This document shows, piece by piece, positions 31,332 through 46,376 of a stretch of DNA of 46,376 bases. The DNA comes from Phyllobacteriaceae bacterium UBA1940. GTDB lineage: Bacteria > Pseudomonadota > Alphaproteobacteria > Rhizobiales > Rhizobiaceae. The stretch covers positions 732 to 47,107 of the forward strand of contig DDFA01000096.1 of assembly GCA_002336975.1 (NCBI GenBank). The letters run 5' to 3'. Numbering within the stretch: the first letter of the stretch is position 1; every line of letters begins with the position of its first letter. Below the pieces are notes generated by a model. That model saw only the letters and a program-made list of their open reading frames with translations. It was not told the DNA's origin and did no database searches. A program made the translations under genes and the position numbers.

Positions 31332-35683
<4,352 letters not shown>

Positions 35684-37945
35684 TCCCATGCTCCTCCACC
35701 CGGCCCTTTGCGGCCTCGAACTCAAAATAGAGCGTCGCCAGCGGCGGCAGCGTAATGTTCGCCGCGATCGACTTGCCCTTGCCCGAGGCGACGACCGAAC
35801 CGAGATTCCCCTTCCCGGTTCCGCCGTAGTCCCCGGCGTCCGTATTCAGAATTTCGCGCCAGCGCCCGGCTTTCGGCAAGGGCAATCTGTAGTCTTCGCG
35901 CGCAATCGGGGTGAAATTCGTCACCACCGCCACCGGACGCTGGCGCGGCGCAATGCGCAGCCATGCAAACACCGAGCGGTCGCGGTCGTCGACGACAAGC
36001 CACTCGAAACCCTCCGGCTCGCAGTCGCGTGCATGCAGCGCCGGGCGGCCGCGGTAGAGACGGTTCAGGTCGCGCACCAGCGACTGCATGCCCTTGTGCG
36101 GCTTGTGTTGCAGCAAATCCCAGTCCAGTTCGCCGGCCTCGCTCCATTCGGCGCGCTGCGCGAATTCCTGCCCCATGAACAAGAGTTTCTTGCCGGGATA
36201 ACCCCACATGAAACCGTAATAGGCGCGCAGCGTCGCGAATTTCTGCCAGTCGTCGCCGCCCATCTTGCCGACCAGCGCCGACTTTCCGTGCACCACCTCG
36301 TCATGCGACAGCGGCAGCACGAAATTCTCGCTGAACGCGTACATCAGCCCGAAGGTGATTTCCTCGTGATGATGGCGCCGGTGGATCGGATCGCGCTTCA
36401 GATAGGACAGGGTGTCGTGCATGAACCCCATGTTCCACTTGAAGCCGAAGCCGAGGCCGCCGTCATGCACGGGGGCGGAGACTTTTGGCCAGGAGGTGGA
36501 TTCCTCGGCAATCGTCAGGATGCCGGGATGGGCGGCATAGACGCGGGCATTCATTTCCTGAAGGAAACGCACCGCTTCCAGGTTCTCGTTGCCGCCGTAC
36601 TCGTTCGGCACCCATTCGCCGTGCTTGCGCGAATAATCGAGATAAAGCATCGAGGCGACCGCATCGACGCGCAGGCCGTCGAGGTGGAATTTCTCCGACC
36701 AGTAGAGCGCGTTGTTGATGAGGTAGGATAGAACCTCGGCGCGGCCGAAATTGTAGATCGCCGTGTTCCAGTCCGGATGGAAGCCCTGGCGCGGGTCGGC
36801 GTGCTCGTAGAGCGCCGTGCCGTCGAACTTGCCGAGGCCATGCGCATCCGTCGGGAAATGCGCCGGCACCCAGTCGAGGATGACGCCGATGCCGACCTTG
36901 TGGCAGCCGTTGACGAAGCGGGCGAAGCCTTCCGGCTCGCCGAAGCGGGCGGTCGGAGCATAGAGGCCCGTCGTCTGGTAGCCCCAGGAGGGATCGAACG
37001 GATATTCGGAGATCGGCAGGAACTCGATATGGGTGAAGCCCATGTCGGTGCAGTAGGGGATGAGGCGGTCGGCCAGCTCGTCCCAGGAAAGCATGCCCCC
37101 ATCGGAATGGCGCTGCCAGGAGGCGGCGTGCACCTCGTAGATCGAGATGGGCTGGCGGCGCGCGTCGGCGCTCGCCCAATGGGCCAGATGCGCCTCGTCC
37201 TCCCATTTCTGGGTGATCGGGCCGGTCGTCATCGAGGCGTTGTTGGGGCGCAGCTCCGAGCGGCGGGCGAAGGGATCGGCCTTCAGCGGCAGCACCTCGC
37301 CGTCGATGCCGACGATCTCGTATTTGTAGGCATGGCCCTCGTTGATGCCGGGCAGGAAGATTTCCCAGATGCCGGTGTCGCGGCGAAGGCGCATGGCGTT
37401 GCGCCGCCCGTCCCATTCGTTGAAGTTGCCGACGACGGAGACGCGCCTGGCGTTCGGTGCCCAGACGGCGAAGTGGAAGCCCTCGATGCCGTCGAGCGTC
37501 ATCGGGTGGGCGCCCAGCTTGTCGAAGAGGCGCAGATGCGAGCCTTCGCGGATATAGTAGTCGTCCATCGGGCCGAGAACGGGGCCGAAGCTGTAGGGAT
37601 CGATCACCACCCATTCGCCGCCCTCGTTGCGGGCGCGGTAGCGGATCGGCTGCTGTTTTCTGACGGCAACCTCGCCGGCGAAGATACCGGCCGGGTGGAC
37701 CTGCCTGAGTTCGCCGATGGCCTTGCCGGACAGCGTCTCGGCCGTCACTTCGGCCGCATCGGGCACGAAGCAGCGGGCGACATATTTGTCGCCGGCTGCC
37801 CCTTCACGAACCAGATGCAGGCCGAGCACCGCGAACGGGTCCCAGTGCCGCCCCTGCAGGATCGCATCGATGTCCGCCTTCGCCAGAAGCTCTGCCAAGA
37901 GATTTGACTGGGGTTCCGTCGTGCTCTTGTTTGGCGGTGCGGTCA

Positions 37946-40405
37946 TCAGGCTCTCCAGATTTCCTTGGCGTATTGGCGAATGGTGCGGTCGGAGGAGAAC
38001 CAGCCCATGCGGGCCGTGTTCCGGATCGTCTTGCCGTACCACGCTGTCTTGTCCGTCCAGATGCCGTCGACCTCGCGCTGGGCTTTCGCATAGGCGTCGA
38101 AATCGGCGGCGACCATGAACCAGTCGTGATTGTAGATGCCGTCGACGAGCCCGGTGAAGCGGTTGCGGTCATCCGGCGAGAAGACGCCGGAGGCGATCGC
38201 CTGAAGGGCTTGCGACAGCTCGCGGGACTGCTCGATGATGGCGCGGGGATTGTGGCCTTCGGAACGAACCCTTGCCACTTCCTCGGCCGTCATGCCGAAG
38301 ATCACGATGTTCTCCTCGCCGACATGGTCGCGCATCTCGACATTGGCGCCGTCGAGCGTGCCGATGGTCAGCGCGCCGTTCAGCGCGAACTTCATATTGC
38401 CGGTGCCGGAGGCTTCCATGCCGGCGGTCGAGATCTGCTCGGAAAGATCGGCGGCCGGCACCATGATCTCGGCGAGCGAGACATTGTAGTTCGGCACGAA
38501 GACGACCTTGAGCAGACCCCGCACGGCCGGGTCGTTGTTGATCACCTTGGCCACGTCGTTGGCCAGCTTGATGATCAGCTTGGCATTGTGATAGCTCGGC
38601 GCCGCCTTGCCGGCGAAGAGTTTTACGCGCGGCACCCAGTCCAGCTCGGGATGCGAGCGGATCTGGTCGTAGAGCGCGACCGCCTCGATGATGTTGAGCA
38701 GCTGGCGCTTGTATTCGTGGATGCGCTTGATCTGGATGTCGAACATCGCGGCCGGATCGATGCGCACGCCCATGCGGCTGCCGACGAGGTTGGACAGCCG
38801 GTTCTTGTTCTCGCGCTTGATCGCCGCGAACTTCTCCTGGAAATCCCTGTTGTCGGCGAAGGCGTCCAGCGCCTTCAAGGCTTCGGCGTCGTCCATGAAA
38901 CCGTCGCCGATGGATTCGCGGATCAGGTTGAACAGGCCCGGATTGCACTGCATCAGCCAGCGCCGCGGCGTGATGCCGTTCGTCTTGTTGTTGATACGAT
39001 CAGGGTAGAGCTTGTGCAGGTCGGCAAACACCGTTTCCTTCATCAGCTCGGTATGCAGCGCAGACACGCCGTTGATCGAATGCGAGCCGACGAAGGCCAG
39101 ATTGCCCATGCGCACGCGGCGCTCGCCCGACTCTTCGATCAGTGAGATGTTGCGGATCCGCTCGTCGTCGAGACCCTGTTTCTTGCGCGCCTCGATCAGG
39201 ATCTTCGCGTTGATCGCATAGACGATCTGCATGTGACGCGGCAAAAGCCGCTCGAACAACGGAACCGACCAGCTCTCAAGTGCCTCGGGAAGCAGTGTGT
39301 GGTTCGTGTAGGAGAAGGTGCGGCGCGAGATGTCCCAGGCCGCGTCGAAGTCCAGGCCGTGCACGTCGGTGAGAAGGCGCACAAGCTCGGCAACAGAGAC
39401 GGCTGGATGCGTGTCGTTGAGCTGGATGGCGACGGCATCCGGCAGCGATGTGAAGTCGGGATATTGCTGGAGATGGCGGCGCAGGATGTCCTGCAGCGAG
39501 GCCGAACAGAAGAAGAATTCCTGGCGCAGGCGCAGTTCCTGACCGGCGGGTGTCGCATCGGCCGGGTAGAGCACGCGGGTCAGGCTTTCGGCCTTGTTGC
39601 TCTCGCGCAGCGCGCCGATATGGTCGCCGGCGTTGAAAGCTTCGAGCAGGATCGGATCGATCGGGTTTGCGGCCCACAGGCGCAGCGTGTTGACGCGCTT
39701 TGCCCGCCAGCCGACGGCCGGCGTGTCGTAGGCCGTGGCGATGACGCGCTCGGCCGGCTTCCAGACGAAGCGCTGCTTGTCCTCGCCGATATTGATCGTC
39801 TCTACACCGCCGCCGAAGCCGATCTCGTAGGAGCTTTCGCGGCGTTCGAATTCCCAGGGGTTGCCATGGGCAAGCCAGGTCTCGGGCAGTTCGACCTGCC
39901 AGCCGTCCGCCATCTGCTGGCGAAAGAGGCCGTGCACGTAGCGGATGCCGTAACCATAGGCCGGCACGTCCACAGTCGCCATGCTCTCCATGAAACAGGC
40001 CGCAAGACGGCCGAGGCCGCCGTTGCCCAGCGCCGCATCAGGCTCCAGCTCGGCAATGACGTCGATATCGACGCCATGCATGGCGAGAGCCTGGCGCATC
40101 TCGTCCATGATGCCGGTATTCGTCATGGCGTCGCGCATCAGGCGGCCGATCAGAAACTCCAGCGATAGATAATAGACGCGCTTGGAACCCGTCGAATAGG
40201 TGCGGCGGGTGGAATCCATCCAGTTGTCGGTGATGCGGTCGCGGGCCACGAGGATTGCCGCCGTCAGCCAGTCGTGCGGCTTGGCCACTTTCGGGTCCTT
40301 GCCGATGCGGTATTTCAGGCGTTCCAGAAGCTCTGTCGCGAGCTGTTCGACATCCGAAGATCGTAGGGCGGGTGCGAGATCGTTGTTGGTACCCCGGTTC
40401 ATCAT
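37946..40405 (-). CDS. glgP: Glycogen phosphorylase
   Basis: 819 residues, GT35. RVYYLSLEFLIGRLMRDAMT near residue 70, ALGNGGLGRLAACFMESMAT near residue 105, and the pyridoxal-phosphate site EASGTGNMKFALNGALTIGT near residue 665, whose Lys carries the cofactor, are diagnostic. It releases glucose-1-phosphate from non-reducing ends of glycogen. It is the first gene of the glgP-B-C-A/pgm operon, the same order known from Agrobacterium. The start is ATG-ATG at 40405/40402, with GAGGGGC 11-14 bases ahead. A promoter with TTGCAA and ATAAAT boxes lies about 65 bp upstream. Its stop overlaps the glgB start by one base. Confidence 0.95.
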   Translation of the reverse strand: MMNRGTNNDLAPALRSSDVEQLATELLERLKYRIGKDPKVAKPHDWLTAAILVARDRITDNWMDSTRRTYSTGSKRVYYLSLEFLIGRLMRDAMTNTGIMDEMRQALAMHGVDIDVIAELEPDAALGNGGLGRLAACFMESMATVDVPAYGYGIRYVHGLFRQQMADGWQVELPETWLAHGNPWEFERRESSYEIGFGGGVETINIGEDKQRFVWKPAERVIATAYDTPAVGWRAKRVNTLRLWAANPIDPILLEAFNAGDHIGALRESNKAESLTRVLYPADATPAGQELRLRQEFFFCSASLQDILRRHLQQYPDFTSLPDAVAIQLNDTHPAVSVAELVRLLTDVHGLDFDAAWDISRRTFSYTNHTLLPEALESWSVPLFERLLPRHMQIVYAINAKILIEARKKQGLDDERIRNISLIEESGERRVRMGNLAFVGSHSINGVSALHTELMKETVFADLHKLYPDRINNKTNGITPRRWLMQCNPGLFNLIRESIGDGFMDDAEALKALDAFADNRDFQEKFAAIKRENKNRLSNLVGSRMGVRIDPAAMFDIQIKRIHEYKRQLLNIIEAVALYDQIRSHPELDWVPRVKLFAGKAAPSYHNAKLIIKLANDVAKVINNDPAVRGLLKVVFVPNYNVSLAEIMVPAADLSEQISTAGMEASGTGNMKFALNGALTIGTLDGANVEMRDHVGEENIVIFGMTAEEVARVRSEGHNPRAIIEQSRELSQALQAIASGVFSPDDRNRFTGLVDGIYNHDWFMVAADFDAYAKAQREVDGIWTDKTAWYGKTIRNTARMGWFSSDRTIRQYAKEIWRA

Positions 40406-40466
40406 CGGTGAACTTTGCCCCTCGTATTTTTCTGCGTTCAGTCTGGCGAAAATCGCGTTTAAATCA

Positions 40467-40495
40467 ATTTATGCATCTATCCGAAGCGCTTGCAA
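40467..40495 (-). promoter_or_regulatory. Candidate promoter of glycogen operon with AAGCGCTT palindrome
   Basis: On the minus strand a TTGCAA -35 box (40490-40495) and an ATAAAT -10 box (40467-40472) are separated by 17 bases, about 60 bp before the glgP start. The palindrome AAGCGCTT (40484-40491) touches the -35 box. AAGCGCTT is the core of many LacI-family operators, so repression by a sugar-responsive regulator is possible. The regulator is not in the window. Confidence 0.4.
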
Positions 40496-40556
40496 TATGC
40501 CTTTTCAAGAAACGCCTCATGCATTTTCGACAGGGCTGAAACACGCAGAAAATGCT

Positions 40557-40589
40557 AAAAGACCCGCCGCGCAAAGCGCAGCGGGTCCG
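40557..40589 (-). terminator. Intrinsic terminator of vWA gene
   Basis: Read on the minus strand, GACCCGC-TGC-GCTTTGC-GCG-GCGGGTC forms a strong stem followed by TTTT. It lies 23 bp after the stop of the TadG-like gene and ahead of the glgP promoter, so it separates the two transcripts. Confidence 0.85.
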
Positions 40590-40611
40590 ATTTTCGCCGC
40601 CGAAGAGCGGA

Positions 40612-41838
40612 TTATTTCGTCAGGCGGGAAACCACCGCGGAGGTGCGCTCGCCGATGACCTTGAAGGCCGCGACGAGGGCCGCCATGTTTGCGGCCTCGA
40701 AGTAATGCTCGGCGTCCGTGGCGCAGGCCTTCAGGAGGTTCTGACCGGCGGTCGGCGCCATGAAGGCGACGGTATAGATTTCCACGCCGTTCGCCTTGGC
40801 GGTGGTGCAGGTCGATTTCGTGCTGGTGTCGTCGGAGGAGGAGTTGTTCGCCCCGTCCGTCATCAGCACAAGATACTTCGTCGGAACCTGGCCGTTCTTG
40901 GTCTTGTGCGTGGAGTTTTCCGAGGCGAGCATCAACCTGTTGTAGGCAGTCTTCGTCGCATTGCCCGAAGCGGTACCGCCGTCGGCATTGAGCAGGTTGA
41001 CATAGGCGAGGGACGCCGCCGAACCCCAGGCGAGTTCACTCGGCGTATAGGTCGTCGAATCGTAGGCGATAGCGCCGGTACGCACGAACGTGTTGGTCGG
41101 GTCGGCGATCGTGAACTGGGTGAAGAGGCTGGCGACGGCGAGCTTCAGGGCGGCCATCTTCGAAACATAGCAAGGGCTCGTGGCCTTGGTCTTGCTATTG
41201 CCCCAGTTCGATTCCGTCCAGTTGATACAGGAATTGACGAGCTTGTCCTTCTCGTTGGTGATCCAGGCCATGGAGCCGGATTTATCGAGCACGAGGAACA
41301 TGGACAGGGCGTTCTTCGATTCCGTGGCGCTTTCGGCGGAACTCTTGGCATTCAGCTCGGTCGATTTATGGCCGAAAAGACGCGTGAAAGCGTTGAATTT
41401 GACTTCGTACTTTGTCGCGACGTTCACCGAGAAAGACTTGCCGTTGCCGAGCAGCGCCGTTTCCTTGATGGAAATGGAGGTGTTCGCGCCGATGTCGTAG
41501 CCGTCATCGTCGTCGTTGTCGCCATCGCCTTTGGCGTTGTCGTCATCCACCTCGACGCCGCCCGAGTGCATCTGTGTCTTGAGGAACCGCATTGCAAGCA
41601 GCCTGGCTTCAGCCTGGCTCTTGCCGTCGTTGGCGAGGGCGGAAGCGGCGGCAAGTGCGGCGGCATCGGCGGCGTCCTGCAGGCTCGCGCGTGTCGAAAC
41701 CACCCTGGTAAGGTCGATCGCCATGCCGCCGACCGCAAGCATCAGCGGCAGAACGATTGCCGTCAGCATTCCGAAATTGCCGGCGCGGTCGCTTCGCAGC
41801 CGCGACACCAAGGCCCGTTTTTCAGTCTTCGTTGTCAT
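40612..41838 (-). CDS. TadE/G-like protein with von Willebrand factor A domain
   Basis: 408 residues. A single N-terminal membrane segment (about residues 22-42) lies within RAGNFGMLTAIVLPLMLAVG, followed by STRASLQDAADAAALAAASA. This is the pseudopilin-like N-terminus of TadE/G Flp-pilus-associated proteins. An acidic stretch (residues 97-116, DDDNAKGDGDNDDDD) separates it from a vWA domain whose metal-site motif DKSGSM starts at residue 185, with VLMTDGANNSSSDD later on. It is probably anchored in the inner membrane with the vWA domain in the periplasm or outside. No other tad or cpa gene is nearby. Downstream it has a clear terminator; upstream is a 141-bp gap after the transglutaminase gene, on the same strand. 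Confidence 0.88.
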   Translation of the reverse strand: MTTKTEKRALVSRLRSDRAGNFGMLTAIVLPLMLAVGGMAIDLTRVVSTRASLQDAADAAALAAASALANDGKSQAEARLLAMRFLKTQMHSGGVEVDDDNAKGDGDNDDDDGYDIGANTSISIKETALLGNGKSFSVNVATKYEVKFNAFTRLFGHKSTELNAKSSAESATESKNALSMFLVLDKSGSMAWITNEKDKLVNSCINWTESNWGNSKTKATSPCYVSKMAALKLAVASLFTQFTIADPTNTFVRTGAIAYDSTTYTPSELAWGSAASLAYVNLLNADGGTASGNATKTAYNRLMLASENSTHKTKNGQVPTKYLVLMTDGANNSSSDDTSTKSTCTTAKANGVEIYTVAFMAPTAGQNLLKACATDAEHYFEAANMAALVAAFKVIGERTSAVVSRLTK

Positions 41839-41979: not shown

Positions 41980-42867
41980 CTATGCCTGGTGGCGTACCGG
42001 AATGACGTCGACGGCCTGGTTCGTCTTGTGCTGGCCGTAGCCCTTGAGCACGCCGATGACGGGCGCGACATCGGCATAGTCGCGGCCATAGGCGACGACG
42101 ATGTGGTCCGTGCCGGCGGGGATGTCGTTGGTCGGATCGAGTTCCATCCAGCCGTTCACCCGTCCACACCAGTAGCGCACCCAGGCATGCATGGCGTCTG
42201 CCCCCTCCAGCCGTTCCTTGCCCGGCGGCGGGATGGTGCGCAGGAAGCCGCTGACATAGCCGGCGGGGATGCCGAGGCTGCGCAGCGCCACGATCATCAC
42301 ATGGGAAAAGTCCTGGCAGACACCGCGCTTCAGCTTGAAGGCCTCGCGCGGCGTCGTGTCCACGTTGGTCGCCTTCGGATCGTAGGTGAAGTCCTTGTGG
42401 ATGCGCTTGCAGATGGCCGAGGCGATGGCGCGGATCGTCATGTCGGGCTTGGCGATGGCGCGGGCGTATTCGGCAATCTCCGAGCATTCCTTCAGGCGCG
42501 GGCTCGGGCCGGTATAGTGATGCGGCGAGCCGGCATCGAGCGACCAGTAGTTGGCGATGTCCTCCGGCAGGTCCGCGACGCGCGGCGAGAAATCGGCTGC
42601 CGGTTCGGGCATGTCGACATGGACGCGCGCCTGCATGCGGATGTCGAGCCGGTCGTGCGGGTTGCGGAAGAGGATGGCGCTCATTGGATTTTCGAAGAAG
42701 TCGTCGTGATCCACTCGCTCGCCCGGCCCGGGCGTCACGCCGACCGTGCCGGCGACGAGCCGCTGGCGCCCGCCGATCGACAGCGGCAGCACGCGCACGA
42801 TGTGCCGACCGCCGGAAACGGGCGTGTCGTAGAGATAGCTGATATGAAGGTTGACGTCGTAGAGCAT
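41980..42867 (-). CDS. Transglutaminase-like protein of the ATP-grasp/alpha-E cluster
   Basis: About 295 residues. The N-terminal beta domain (MLYDVNLHISYLYDTPVSGG, then RVLPLSIGGRQRLVAG) is the bacterial transglutaminase N-terminal region. The papain-like core has Cys in KRGVCQDFSH (near residue 183), His in DAMHAWVRYW (near 226) and Asp in MELDPTNDIPAG (near 243), so the triad is complete. These enzymes are predicted to be amidases, peptidases or cross-linkers acting with an ATP-grasp ligase. The ATG at 42867 is used; an in-frame GTG at 42873 is closer to the GGGGGGAAG ribosome site and equally possible. It lies 22 bp after the ATP-grasp/alpha-E gene, in one operon. Confidence 0.9.
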   Translation of the reverse strand: MLYDVNLHISYLYDTPVSGGRHIVRVLPLSIGGRQRLVAGTVGVTPGPGERVDHDDFFENPMSAILFRNPHDRLDIRMQARVHVDMPEPAADFSPRVADLPEDIANYWSLDAGSPHHYTGPSPRLKECSEIAEYARAIAKPDMTIRAIASAICKRIHKDFTYDPKATNVDTTPREAFKLKRGVCQDFSHVMIVALRSLGIPAGYVSGFLRTIPPPGKERLEGADAMHAWVRYWCGRVNGWMELDPTNDIPAGTDHIVVAYGRDYADVAPVIGVLKGYGQHKTNQAVDVIPVRHQA

Positions 42868-42889
42868 GGTCACAGCGTCTTCCCCCCGC

Positions 42890-45298
42890 TCAGCTCAGAT
42901 AGGTTTGCGCAAGAATGTCGGACAGTTTTTCGAGCTCGGCCTCGAAACGCTTGTAAACGGCATCCGTCATGGTCTCCGGCGTCATCACCGCCAGCCCCGC
43001 GTGAAGGCGCATCGCCTCACGGTAGAACGGCGACATCTGGCCGTTGGAATAGGCGTTCGGCAGCTGCTCCACCTCGTTCTTGATCTCGTTCAGCTGGTAG
43101 AGGATCGAGCGCGGGTTGAGCGGATCGAGCGCCAGAAGGTCGGTGACGGTAAGGCGCGCGGTCGCCACGTTGTAGCGGCGGCGGTGGGTCATCACGCTGT
43201 CGCCGATCTCCAGGAGCATATCGAGCGCGCCGTCGGGCGCATCCTCGCCGGACATGTGGCCGAGCAGGCGCGTCATGTGCAGGCCGCGCTCGAGATAGCG
43301 GCCGATGGAGAGGAAACGCCAACCGGTGAAGCGGTACATGTTTTCATGCACGAGACCGGCAAAACCCGCGAGCTTGCGCAAGAGCACGGTCATGGCGCGC
43401 GTGGCGTCGTCGCCAGGCTCGATGCTGACATGGAAGCGACGGGCGGTCTTGGACAGGTCGTTCAGCGCCAGCCAGCCATCCGGCGAGAAGCGGTCGCGGA
43501 TATTGCTGGCGGAGAAGACGGCGCTGTCGATATTGCGGATGAGGCTCGTCGGCACGGCTTCCGCCGTGTCGATATCGAGCGCGTCGAGATAGTCGCTGAC
43601 ATCCTTCAGCAGCGGCTGTTCCGGGTTGGCATATTCCGCGTAGCGGCCGTGCCAGGCGCGCAGGATGCGCAGCGCTCCTTCGGCGCGCTCAATATAGCGG
43701 CCGAGCCAGAAGAGGTTGTCGGCCGCGCGGCTCGGCAGGCTGCCGGGCATGTTGCGGGTGAAGATCTCTTCCGTCGGTAGCAGCGAGGTGCGCTCGACCG
43801 GCTTCTGGCTGACGATCCACACATCCGCCGCCGATCCGCCTTCCTGCATCGCGATAGCCGAGACATTGTCGCCGGCGCCGATGCGGGCAAAGCCCCCCGG
43901 CATGATCTGCCAGCCGTCGCGCGTGCGGGCGGCGAAGACGCGCAGCGACATCGGCCGCGGCACCAGCTTGCCGTCCACGAAGGCCGGCGTGGTCGAGAGC
44001 GTCACGGCCTCCTGGCCGACGAGTTTTGCGCCGTCGCTCGACAGCCATTCGGCGATGGACTGTTTTGCCGTGTCGCGCAGGGTCGAACCGAGCACGGACT
44101 GTTCGTTGTCGTCGAAGAAGGGGCGCGTCGAATAGGCGGGGCCGATGACCATGCGCTCGATATTGGCCGCGACGTGCTCGCGCTCTTCTTTCTGGCCGCA
44201 CCACCAGGTGGCGATGGAGGGGAGGCGCTGCTCCTCGCCGAGCAATTGCCGACAGATGTTCGGCAGGAAGGCGAGGAAGGCGCGGGTCTCGACGATGCCG
44301 GCCCCGAGCGCGTTGACGAAGGTGACGGAACCGGAGCGCAGCGCCTCGACCATGCCGGGCGTGCCGATATGGGAGTTCTGGTTGAGTTCCAGCGGATCGG
44401 CGAAGGCCGCATCGAGGCGGCGCCAGAGTACGCCGATGGGTTTCAGGCCCGCGACGGTGCGCACCATCACCTTGCCGCCGACGACCGTCAGGTCTTCGCC
44501 CTCCAGCAGCATGAAGCCGAGATAGCGCGCGATATAGGCGTGTTCGAAATAGGTTTCGTTGGCGAGACCCGGCGTCAGGACGGCGATGCGATCATCCGCC
44601 GATTTTTCCGCCTGCAGCGTGTTGCGGAAAGCGCCGAAGAAACCGGCGAGACGGTGCACATGGGTTTCGGCGAAGACATCGGAAAAGGCGCGCGTCGTCG
44701 CCACGCGGTTTTCCAGTGCAAAACCCGCACCCGAGGGGGCCTGCGTGCGGTCGGAGAGCACCCACCAGTTGCCGTCGGGACCACGGCCGATCTCGAAGGA
44801 GACGAAGTGCAGGAAATGCCGGCCGTGCGGCTGGACGCCGACGAGCGGTCGCAGGAACTCGCTGTTGGAGGCGACGAGCGCGGGCGGCAGCAGGCCGTTG
44901 GCGACAAGCTCGTTCTTGCCGTAGATATCGGCGACGACGGCTTCCAGAAGCTCCGCGCGCTGGATCAGCCCGCGTGAAAGGTTTTCCCACTCGGCGTCAT
45001 CGACGAGCACGGGCACATGCGAAAGCGGCCAGGCGCGGTCTGCGCCGGCCTCTTTGCCATAGGCGCGGTAGAATACCCCGGCGTCGCGCAGGTAGCGGTC
45101 GGCGCGCGCGAAGCGGCCGGCTAGGTCGGTCTCGTCCATGCGGCCGAGCGCCGACAGGAAATGCTGCCAGACGGGACGCACGTCGCCATGCGTGTCGACC
45201 ATCTCGTCGGCCACGTCAGGAAGCGGCGCATAGGCACGGGCTGGCGTTTGCGCTGCCTCGGCCTCGATCTGCTCTGCCTCCGCATTCCTGGTCTTCAA
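42890..45298 (-). CDS. Circularly permuted ATP-grasp protein fused to alpha-E domain
   Basis: 802 residues. Residues from about 60 to 500 resemble the circularly permuted ATP-grasp family (formerly DUF404/DUF407): WPLSHVPVLVDDAEWENLSRGL, NGNWWVLSDRTQAPSGAGFALENR, FVNALGAGIVETRAFLAFLP and PRPMSLRVFAARTRDGW. Residues from about 519 are an alpha-E domain (formerly DUF403), starting SLPSRAADNLFWLGRYIERA and mainly helical. ATP-grasp enzymes of this kind are predicted to form peptide-like amide bonds, with alpha-E as a partner domain of unknown role. In many genomes the two are separate genes. The start is TTG at 45298 with AGGAG seven bases upstream; the first in-frame ATG is 32 codons later. It is flanked by the transglutaminase gene and by a DUF2126 gene 20 bp upstream. 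Confidence 0.9.
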   Translation of the reverse strand: MKTRNAEAEQIEAEAAQTPARAYAPLPDVADEMVDTHGDVRPVWQHFLSALGRMDETDLAGRFARADRYLRDAGVFYRAYGKEAGADRAWPLSHVPVLVDDAEWENLSRGLIQRAELLEAVVADIYGKNELVANGLLPPALVASNSEFLRPLVGVQPHGRHFLHFVSFEIGRGPDGNWWVLSDRTQAPSGAGFALENRVATTRAFSDVFAETHVHRLAGFFGAFRNTLQAEKSADDRIAVLTPGLANETYFEHAYIARYLGFMLLEGEDLTVVGGKVMVRTVAGLKPIGVLWRRLDAAFADPLELNQNSHIGTPGMVEALRSGSVTFVNALGAGIVETRAFLAFLPNICRQLLGEEQRLPSIATWWCGQKEEREHVAANIERMVIGPAYSTRPFFDDNEQSVLGSTLRDTAKQSIAEWLSSDGAKLVGQEAVTLSTTPAFVDGKLVPRPMSLRVFAARTRDGWQIMPGGFARIGAGDNVSAIAMQEGGSAADVWIVSQKPVERTSLLPTEEIFTRNMPGSLPSRAADNLFWLGRYIERAEGALRILRAWHGRYAEYANPEQPLLKDVSDYLDALDIDTAEAVPTSLIRNIDSAVFSASNIRDRFSPDGWLALNDLSKTARRFHVSIEPGDDATRAMTVLLRKLAGFAGLVHENMYRFTGWRFLSIGRYLERGLHMTRLLGHMSGEDAPDGALDMLLEIGDSVMTHRRRYNVATARLTVTDLLALDPLNPRSILYQLNEIKNEVEQLPNAYSNGQMSPFYREAMRLHAGLAVMTPETMTDAVYKRFEAELEKLSDILAQTYLS

Positions 45299-45318
45299 TC
45301 ATTCTCTCCTGATGGGGG

Positions 45319-46376
45319 TCAGATGCCGGGTGGCCGGCGCAGATCCAGCGTCAGCGGAAATTCCGCCGACGGTGTTTCCGGCCACAGCGTATAGCCTCCC
45401 GCCCTGTGCCCCCATGGCTCGAACCGCGCCAGCCTGCGCGCCTCGGCCTCGTTTCCATTTACCGGGAAGGTGTCATAGTTGCGTCCACCCGGATGGGCAA
45501 CGTGGTAAATGCAGCCCCCGATCGCTCGCCGCGACCATGTATCATAAATGTCGAAAGTAAGCGGTGTGTTGACGGGCAGCACGGGATGCAGGCCCGAAGC
45601 CGGCTGCCAGGCCTTGTAGCGCACGCCGGCGACGGAAACGCCCTTCGTGCCTGCCGCCTTCAGCGGAACCGGCCGGCCGTTGCAGGCGACGTTGTAGCGT
45701 TCCGGGTTGGCCGTCTCCAGCTTTACCTGAAGGCGCTCGACGGAGCTGTCGACATAGCGCACCGTACCGCCGATCGCGCCCTGCTCTCCCATGACGTGCC
45801 ACGGTTCCAGTGCCTGCCGCACCTCAAGGTTCGCCCCCTCGTACTCGACCTCGCCGCAGAAGGGGAAGCGGAATTCGAGCTGGGCGGCGAACCATTCCGG
45901 GCGAAGATCGAAGCCGTTCGCCTTGAGGTCGGCGAGCACGTCTAGGAAATCCTGCCACACGTAATGCGGCAGCATGAAGCGATCGTGCAGCGTGGTGCCC
46001 CAGCGCACGAAGCCGCCCTGCGCCGGGTTCAGCCAGAAGCGGGCGATCAGCGCGCGGATCAGGAGCTGCTGGGCAAGGCTCATGCGGGCATTCGGCGGCA
46101 TTTCGAAGCCGCGGAACTCGACGAGGCCGAGCCGGCCCGTCGGCCCGTCCGGGGAGAAGAGCTTGTCGATGCAGATTTCCGAACGATGCGTGTTGCCGGT
46201 GACGTCGGTGAGGAGGTTGCGGAACAACCGGTCGACGAGCCAGGGCAGCGGTGGCGCGCCTTCGCTCGGGGCTGGCACCTGCGATAGCGCGATCTCCAAT
46301 TCATAGAGCGAATCGTGCCGCGCCTCGTCGAAACGCGGGGACTGGCTGGTCGGGCCGATGAACAGGCCGGAGAACA
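45319..46376 (-). CDS. DUF2126 / transglutaminase-family protein, C-terminal part (partial)
   Basis: The gene begins beyond the right edge; about 352 C-terminal residues are visible, from [20 protein letters not shown] at the edge to RRPPGI. This is the C-terminal DUF2126 region typical of large (about 1100-residue) proteins whose N-terminus is a second transglutaminase domain. Conserved stretches include [40 protein letters not shown] and [20 protein letters not shown]. The transglutaminase catalytic part is not in the window. It ends 20 bp before the ATP-grasp/alpha-E gene on the same strand, as in the conserved gene cluster. Confidence 0.88.

Follow-up and report, generated by a model that had tools for sequence, protein, structure and literature searches.

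What does a protein contribute to a predicted amide-bond system when its ATP-grasp and alpha-E domains form one polypeptide? The question is raised by an operon at the end of the window (the whole stretch of 46,376 nucleotides analysed here, from the bin Phyllobacteriaceae bacterium UBA1940), which encodes a DUF2126 protein, an ATP-grasp/alpha-E fusion and a transglutaminase-like protein. As described by Iyer et al. in 2009, the system reportedly comprises ATP-grasp, alpha-E, transglutaminase, NTN-hydrolase (Anbu) and DUF2126 proteins, the last of which we take to have its place there. The predicted amide- or peptide-modification system of Iyer 2009 is cited in PMC5666114, PMC6376114 and PMC3597751, and in the accessible parts of these papers the families match those of the window, in agreement with an earlier note, made from this sequence alone, that had regarded the three genes as parts of such a system. 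The accessible parts of the literature found name no substrate, and those of PMC12096838, PMC10274813 and PMC3597751 give no function.

Gene content of the operon

Open reading frames and Pfam matches agreed with the earlier description of three adjacent minus-strand genes, and the profile search that the note had proposed as a check recovered the ATP-grasp, alpha-E and DUF2126 families (Table 1), all Pfam matches of the operon lying far above the cut-off. The DUF2126 match (PF09899, E 3.8e-184) covers profile positions 483–826 of 826; the gene is incomplete, with about its last third visible, because the window ends where the contig ends (G000:C48, 47107 bases). The fused protein matched CP_ATPgrasp_2 (PF14403, E 2.6e-137) at residues 96–473 of 802, CP_ATPgrasp_1 (PF04174) at residues 96–389, and Alpha-E (PF04168, E 6.4e-61) at residues 521–801, over profile positions 1–294 of 294, while the third protein contains Bact_transglu_N and Transglut_core. 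Of the gaps that had been given as 20 and 22 bp, the first is exact, and the second is 22 bp from the in-frame ATG (42867) or 16 bp from the upstream GTG (42873).

Table 1. Features of the operon in the window.
Feature	Position	Strand	Basis
DUF2126 protein, C-terminal 351 residues (putative GS-like amidoligase family)	45319..46376	minus	ORF and PF09899; 5' part absent
20-bp gap carrying a ribosome-binding-like AGGAGA ahead of the fusion gene (which starts at TTG)	45299..45318	minus	direct reading
Fused protein of 802 residues (circularly permuted ATP-grasp domain plus alpha-E domain), starting at TTG	42890..45298	minus	ORF, Pfam
Domain with ATP-grasp fold and degenerate active site (residues 31-497)	43808..45208	minus	
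Degenerate Mg-site motif Ser182-Asp183-Arg184 (Glu-Asp-Asn in stand-alone relatives)	44747..44755	minus	
Region of the ATP-lysine and Gly-rich loop in degenerate form, residues 386-400 from Gly386 (K-E/P-x-x-x-S/A-GGYG in stand-alone relatives)	44099..44143	minus	
Alpha-E domain, residues 521-801, ER motif kept (YIER, residues 535-538)	42896..43738	minus	PF04168
Transglutaminase-like protein with intact C186/H229/D246 triad; alternative start at the ATG 42867	41980..42873	minus	ORF, Pfam, relatives

Recurrence of the fusion and the operon

To place the operon among its relatives, we drew on two sets of genomes. A search of 61 related genomes, including the window's own, gave some match in 44, of which 29 held both the fused and a split type and 15 the split type alone, leaving 17 with none; split loci were judged by position, an identity near 30% and separate frames, and 21 of the 44 were read in detail. 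A species-level scan with one genome per species gave at least 587 confirmed stretches, the best 80 of which were kept (hereafter the named loci); they came from a search for fused proteins, all 80 are fused, and by title nearly all belong to Rhizobiales, with one bin titled Arenimonas and two titled only Alphaproteobacteria. Within these best 80 of at least 587, the three genes follow one another on a single strand as DUF2126, fusion, transglutaminase in 78. The other two are L114, at a contig end, and L087 (Sinorhizobium medicae USDA1037), where the fusion and the transglutaminase are present and no DUF2126 was found in the 7 kb upstream. The transglutaminase Cys-His-Asp triad (numbered from the GTG start), which had been described as intact, is so in the window and in all 79 named relatives counted, and E537 and R538 of alpha-E are invariant in two alignments (A1, A3).

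The fusion is not special to this genome and the operon is an ordinary one. Databases name such proteins 'circularly permuted type 2 ATP-grasp protein' and 'circularly permuted ATP-grasp superfamily protein/alpha-E superfamily protein'. An assembly error joining two genes, which the earlier note had named as a result that would undo its claim of a single polypeptide, is ruled out because the fusion recurs across many assemblies: the 29 genomes of the relatives search, all 80 named loci and the phylum loci described below. In one same-genus genome of the 29 (L042, G005:C1:3663000-3682000) a frameshift splits the fused gene between its ATP-grasp and alpha-E parts.

Downstream of the operon (window 35592..41838) lie genes for a TadG-like VWA protein (Pfam), then glgP and glgB (by reading of frames). 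Each of these clusters is present in 55 of the 80 named loci (best 80 of at least 587), which looks like synteny across the family, and the neighbouring genes were set aside as a clue to function.

In relatives, the DUF2126 proteins have about 1,100 residues and an additional N-terminal transglutaminase domain, whose triad is present in 72/72 proteins of more than 1,000 aa; ten highly conserved positions chosen by us, including that triad, are identical in the same 72. Pfam labels DUF2126 a putative amidoligase. In a comparison with PDB sequences, two transglutaminase-like entries were the sole matches, and the AlphaFold model of the Shinella lacus protein (pLDDT 57.8) was too poor for a fold search.

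Co-occurrence with a stand-alone set

The same bin carries on contig C16 adjacent genes for a stand-alone ATP-grasp protein of 483 aa with its key residues intact, an alpha-E protein of 312 aa, a transglutaminase of 262 aa and an Anbu-like member of the proteasome family of 242 aa. Of 20 stretches from relatives, 17 have an Anbu gene next to the split genes. All 29 genomes with the fusion in the relatives search also hold a split-type match (Fisher p 1.2e-6 over 61 related genomes), a value that is descriptive only because related genomes are not independent.

In a phylum sample of 398 genomes, alpha-E was found in 212 and DUF2126 in 120. Every one of the 120 DUF2126 genomes carries alpha-E, 111 of them in two or more copies; the 278 genomes without DUF2126 have one copy (80), two copies (12) or none (186). 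A split-type ATP-grasp match, judged by identity and not residue by residue, is present in 120/120 DUF2126 genomes at 48–100% identity and nearly full length (100% being the query's own genome, and the match in G235 being cut at a contig end). A fused-type match is present in 112/120, in G144 and G211 within short frames at contig ends, and the fused protein was not found in the other 8. Split ATP-grasp and DUF2126 lie within one stretch of 12–20 kb in 23 of 40 phylum loci, comprising 16 of the first 20 stretches, which had partly been picked for nearby alpha-E, and 7 of the second 20.

These distributions suggest that the DUF2126/fusion module may have been added to an Anbu-type ATP-grasp/alpha-E module and that both sets probably serve one pathway. 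Because the sets are unlinked in this lineage, the case for their partnership here comes from co-occurrence among related genomes, which are not independent. A distinct pathway that yields a product of its own, accompanied by the stand-alone set through shared ecology or ancestry, would agree with this lack of linkage: the flanks (up to 7 kb) of the 80 named loci contained no Anbu, stand-alone ATP-grasp or alpha-E over 100 bits, and the window locus has no Anbu gene as far as the contig reaches. We nevertheless consider that explanation unlikely, given the joint presence of both sets in all DUF2126 genomes and their sharing of a stretch in 23 of the 40 phylum loci.

Several loci depart from these patterns. 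Two loci of one family, L164 and L184, combine DUF2126 and Anbu with the stand-alone ATP-grasp, alpha-E and transglutaminase genes, and the fused protein is absent from the stretch; this is perhaps a minimal form of the system. A 485-residue frame at G128:C1:12244-13458, 40% identical to the split form, may represent a third type of ATP-grasp; the same genome carries both the split and the fused type.

The window contig itself is likely foreign to its bin, to judge from sequence identities. Its fused protein is 60–62% identical to those of six same-genus genomes and up to 94% identical to named Shinella, and its glycogen phosphorylase (by reading of the frame) is 72–73% identical to the same genus and 90% identical to a genome of another genus. 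The C16 ATP-grasp protein shares 90% identity with the three genomes of the same genus that were compared, and the listed contamination of the bin is 5.15%. With mis-binning likely, the window operon and the C16 Anbu operon may stem from two organisms.

A proposed link to nitrogen limitation

Published work, in the parts accessible to us, connects homologous clusters with nitrogen control. P. putida PP_2685-2688 are likely controlled by NtrB/NtrC, and under nitrogen limitation PP_2686-2688 rose 11–37 fold and PP_2685 only 1.1–4.8 fold (PMC7801951); PP2685-2687 were raised in another study (PMC3325844), and in Bradyrhizobium a sigma-54-type site is recorded for a CP_ATPgrasp_1 gene (PMC13207237). 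In B. cenocepacia, I35_5080-83 form one cluster of DUF404/407, DUF403, transglutaminase and large transglutaminase genes, and are among the common targets of NtrC and sigma-54 (-6.0 to -9.4 fold; PMC5491218). From its description, the large protein would be DUF2126-like, and the presence of a stand-alone ATP-grasp and such a protein under one regulator is a further argument against separate pathways.

Sigma-54-like sites were scanned with a loose consensus, expected values being taken from simple mononucleotide shuffles. In the phylum set (L149-L188), sites were found upstream of 10/22 split ATP-grasp genes (0.28 expected) and 9/40 DUF2126 genes (0.48 expected), in line with the published NtrC control; in the relatives, 3/21 split genes (0.4 expected) and 1/14 DUF2126 genes (0.2 expected) had one. 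Upstream of DUF2126 in the named loci there was no enrichment (1/72 against 0.96 expected), and with 1/14 in the relatives, a sigma-54 site ahead of this lineage's DUF2126 operon was rejected. Collectively, the literature and the phylum set indicate nitrogen limitation as a condition for the system.

Active site, fold and selection of the fused protein

Fused and split proteins were compared within the lineage (109 fused rows, among which at least one record is present twice, against 21 split proteins) and across the phylum (34 fused domains against 23 split ones, from 40 loci). Pocket residues are numbered as in the split protein L034, and the functions in Mg and ATP binding assigned to the missing residues are presumed from position and from glutathione synthetases. 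Within the lineage, the ATP lysine is present in 0/109 fused against 21/21 split proteins, the Mg-site Glu in 1/109 against 21/21, and the Mg-site Asn in 0/109 (Arg in 108) against 21/21. The GGYG loop, present in all 21 split proteins, is lost from the lineage's fused ones, where the loop glycine G384 is Gly in 75/109 and the other loop glycines remain in few. Pocket residues R159, R284, D287, N320 and R439 are retained in 109/109 fused proteins, D170, R285 and R434 in 108/109, and Q415 in 107/109.

Across the phylum, the Mg-site Glu is present in 0/34 fused against 23/23 split domains and the Asn in 0/34 (Arg in 29) against 23/23, and GGYG, found in 23/23 split domains, is replaced in most fused ones. 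The ATP lysine is intact in 23/23 split domains and kept in 14/34 fused ones, three of the 34 being cut before that position. The lysine has thus gone from all fused proteins compared in the window's lineage and from part of those elsewhere; its loss fails as a rule for every fused protein, and ATP binding may survive in some of them. The pocket residues vary more across the phylum than within the lineage, N320 being retained in 34, R439 in 33, D287 in 31, R159 in 29, R284 in 28, R285 in 27, D170 and Q415 in 24 each and R434 in 15 of the 34 fused domains. All 44 split proteins read residue by residue are intact at Glu, Asn, Lys and GGYG.

Compared with what an active ligase would have, the window protein shows the fold and the profile match, and lacks the Mg2+ Glu/Asn pair (Ser182/Arg184), the ATP lysine and the Gly-rich loop (Gly386). 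The earlier note had argued that the fusion favours direct substrate transfer between its two parts, and had itself named loss of the ATP-binding residues as evidence to the contrary. Glu, Asn, lysine and GGYG are missing from the window protein, and the ATP/Mg residues are gone from nearly all of its lineage relatives as well; because this site is lost, channelling between two active domains was dropped as the leading interpretation. The fused ATP-grasp half is, judging from its residues, most likely a pseudoenzyme that has lost catalysis.

The AlphaFold model of the 802-residue fusion has a pLDDT of 84.5 and a pTM of 0.79, and a search with the predicted structure matched its ATP-grasp domain to the fold of glutathione synthetases. 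Four pairs gave dN/dS of 0.07–0.23, which shows that in these pairs the degenerate domain is under purifying selection. A single branch with support of 100/100 separates fused from split proteins (45 and 31 rows). Evolution is slightly faster in the ATP-grasp half than in alpha-E, with a higher dN/dS in 4/4 pairs and a mean identity to the window of 73.5% against 75.9% over the 80 named relatives, as would be expected if the dead domain were just a remnant that tethers and stabilises alpha-E, having neither a ligand nor a part in regulation. We find this rather improbable, since the Arg at position 184 in 108/109 proteins and the retained pocket residues suggest a kept binding site. Least probable is a fused domain that is still an active ligase, with a site rebuilt from other residues or operating with no Mg pair and its product passed to alpha-E: the retained fold, the low dN/dS, the invariant R159, R284, D287 and R439 of the lineage and the lysine of some phylum-wide domains would suit it, but Glu and Asn are absent from every fused domain of the phylum set, and the lineage has lost both lysine and loop.

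The Pfam text of PF04174 presumably already states that inactive forms are often fused to Alpha-E. The residue loss is therefore probably known. A literature search for inactive or pseudo ATP-grasp wording gave no match, and no biochemistry of the fused protein was found in the accessible parts of the literature. The counts add the near-fixed replacement of Asn by Arg in this lineage and, in the sampled genomes, a strict companionship with the stand-alone form.

Discussion

From the gene content, residue loss, conservation, co-occurrence and fold observed here, we consider it reasonably probable that the operon serves the predicted amide-bond system as a conserved auxiliary module, in which the fused protein is a pseudoenzyme partner and DUF2126 the likely ligase, and which shares one pathway with the stand-alone set, where a transglutaminase and the proteasome-like Anbu are often included. 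The fused protein, a glutathione-synthetase-like ATP-grasp fold lacking the Mg2+ and ATP residues and joined to alpha-E, probably helps other enzymes, because its ATP-using half has lost key residues; it would do so with no catalysis of its own, as a substrate-binding or regulatory subunit. Bond formation would fall to the DUF2126 protein, with its transglutaminase-like domain and putative GS-like amidoligase domain. The stand-alone ATP-grasp may also be a ligase, and the transglutaminases and Anbu may be editing or cleaving parts. The pathway, switched on by nitrogen limitation through NtrC and sigma-54 in other proteobacteria, may be controlled likewise in this organism.

A more specific version, which we put forward tentatively, sees in the fused protein a purpose-built pseudoenzyme whose site was rebuilt for a ligand through the Asn-to-Arg replacement, and holds that it is the obligate non-catalytic partner linking the stand-alone ATP-grasp and the GS-like DUF2126 protein in a single nitrogen-starvation amide-bond pathway encoded at two loci. 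Since the degenerate fused ATP-grasp is conserved and is accompanied by an intact copy, the candidates for ligation are DUF2126 and the stand-alone ATP-grasp, and the fusion is a candidate partner.

Comparison with known systems

Glutathione synthetases (2hgs, 3kal and others) share the fold of the fused ATP-grasp domain at 10–14% identity in those rows, and the window protein lacks their presumed catalytic residues. Where 3n6x, a putative glutathionylspermidine synthase of Methylobacillus flagellatus, reads VLEDN and VVKEVxGSGGYG, the window protein reads VLSDR and VIGPAYS. The Anbu operon, as presented in the accessible parts of PMC5666114 and PMC6376114, has ATP-grasp, alpha-E and transglutaminase genes homologous to those of the window; it differs in its stand-alone intact ATP-grasp (21/21 read), separate alpha-E and usual Anbu (17/20), whereas the window has the fused degenerate form with DUF2126 and no Anbu. 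In Y. bercovieri, according to the same parts of PMC6376114, the stand-alone ATP-grasp of this operon releases phosphate from ATP, which speaks for the interpretation given above. Against it stand a pull-down with Anbu as bait, which gave no specific interaction of the operon proteins, and the preference for protein degradation over peptide synthesis as the role of Anbu in the portion available of PMC5666114. From the predicted system of Iyer 2009 the window operon shows no clear difference: its domain families belong to that system, and its gene order is the one that prevails among the named loci.
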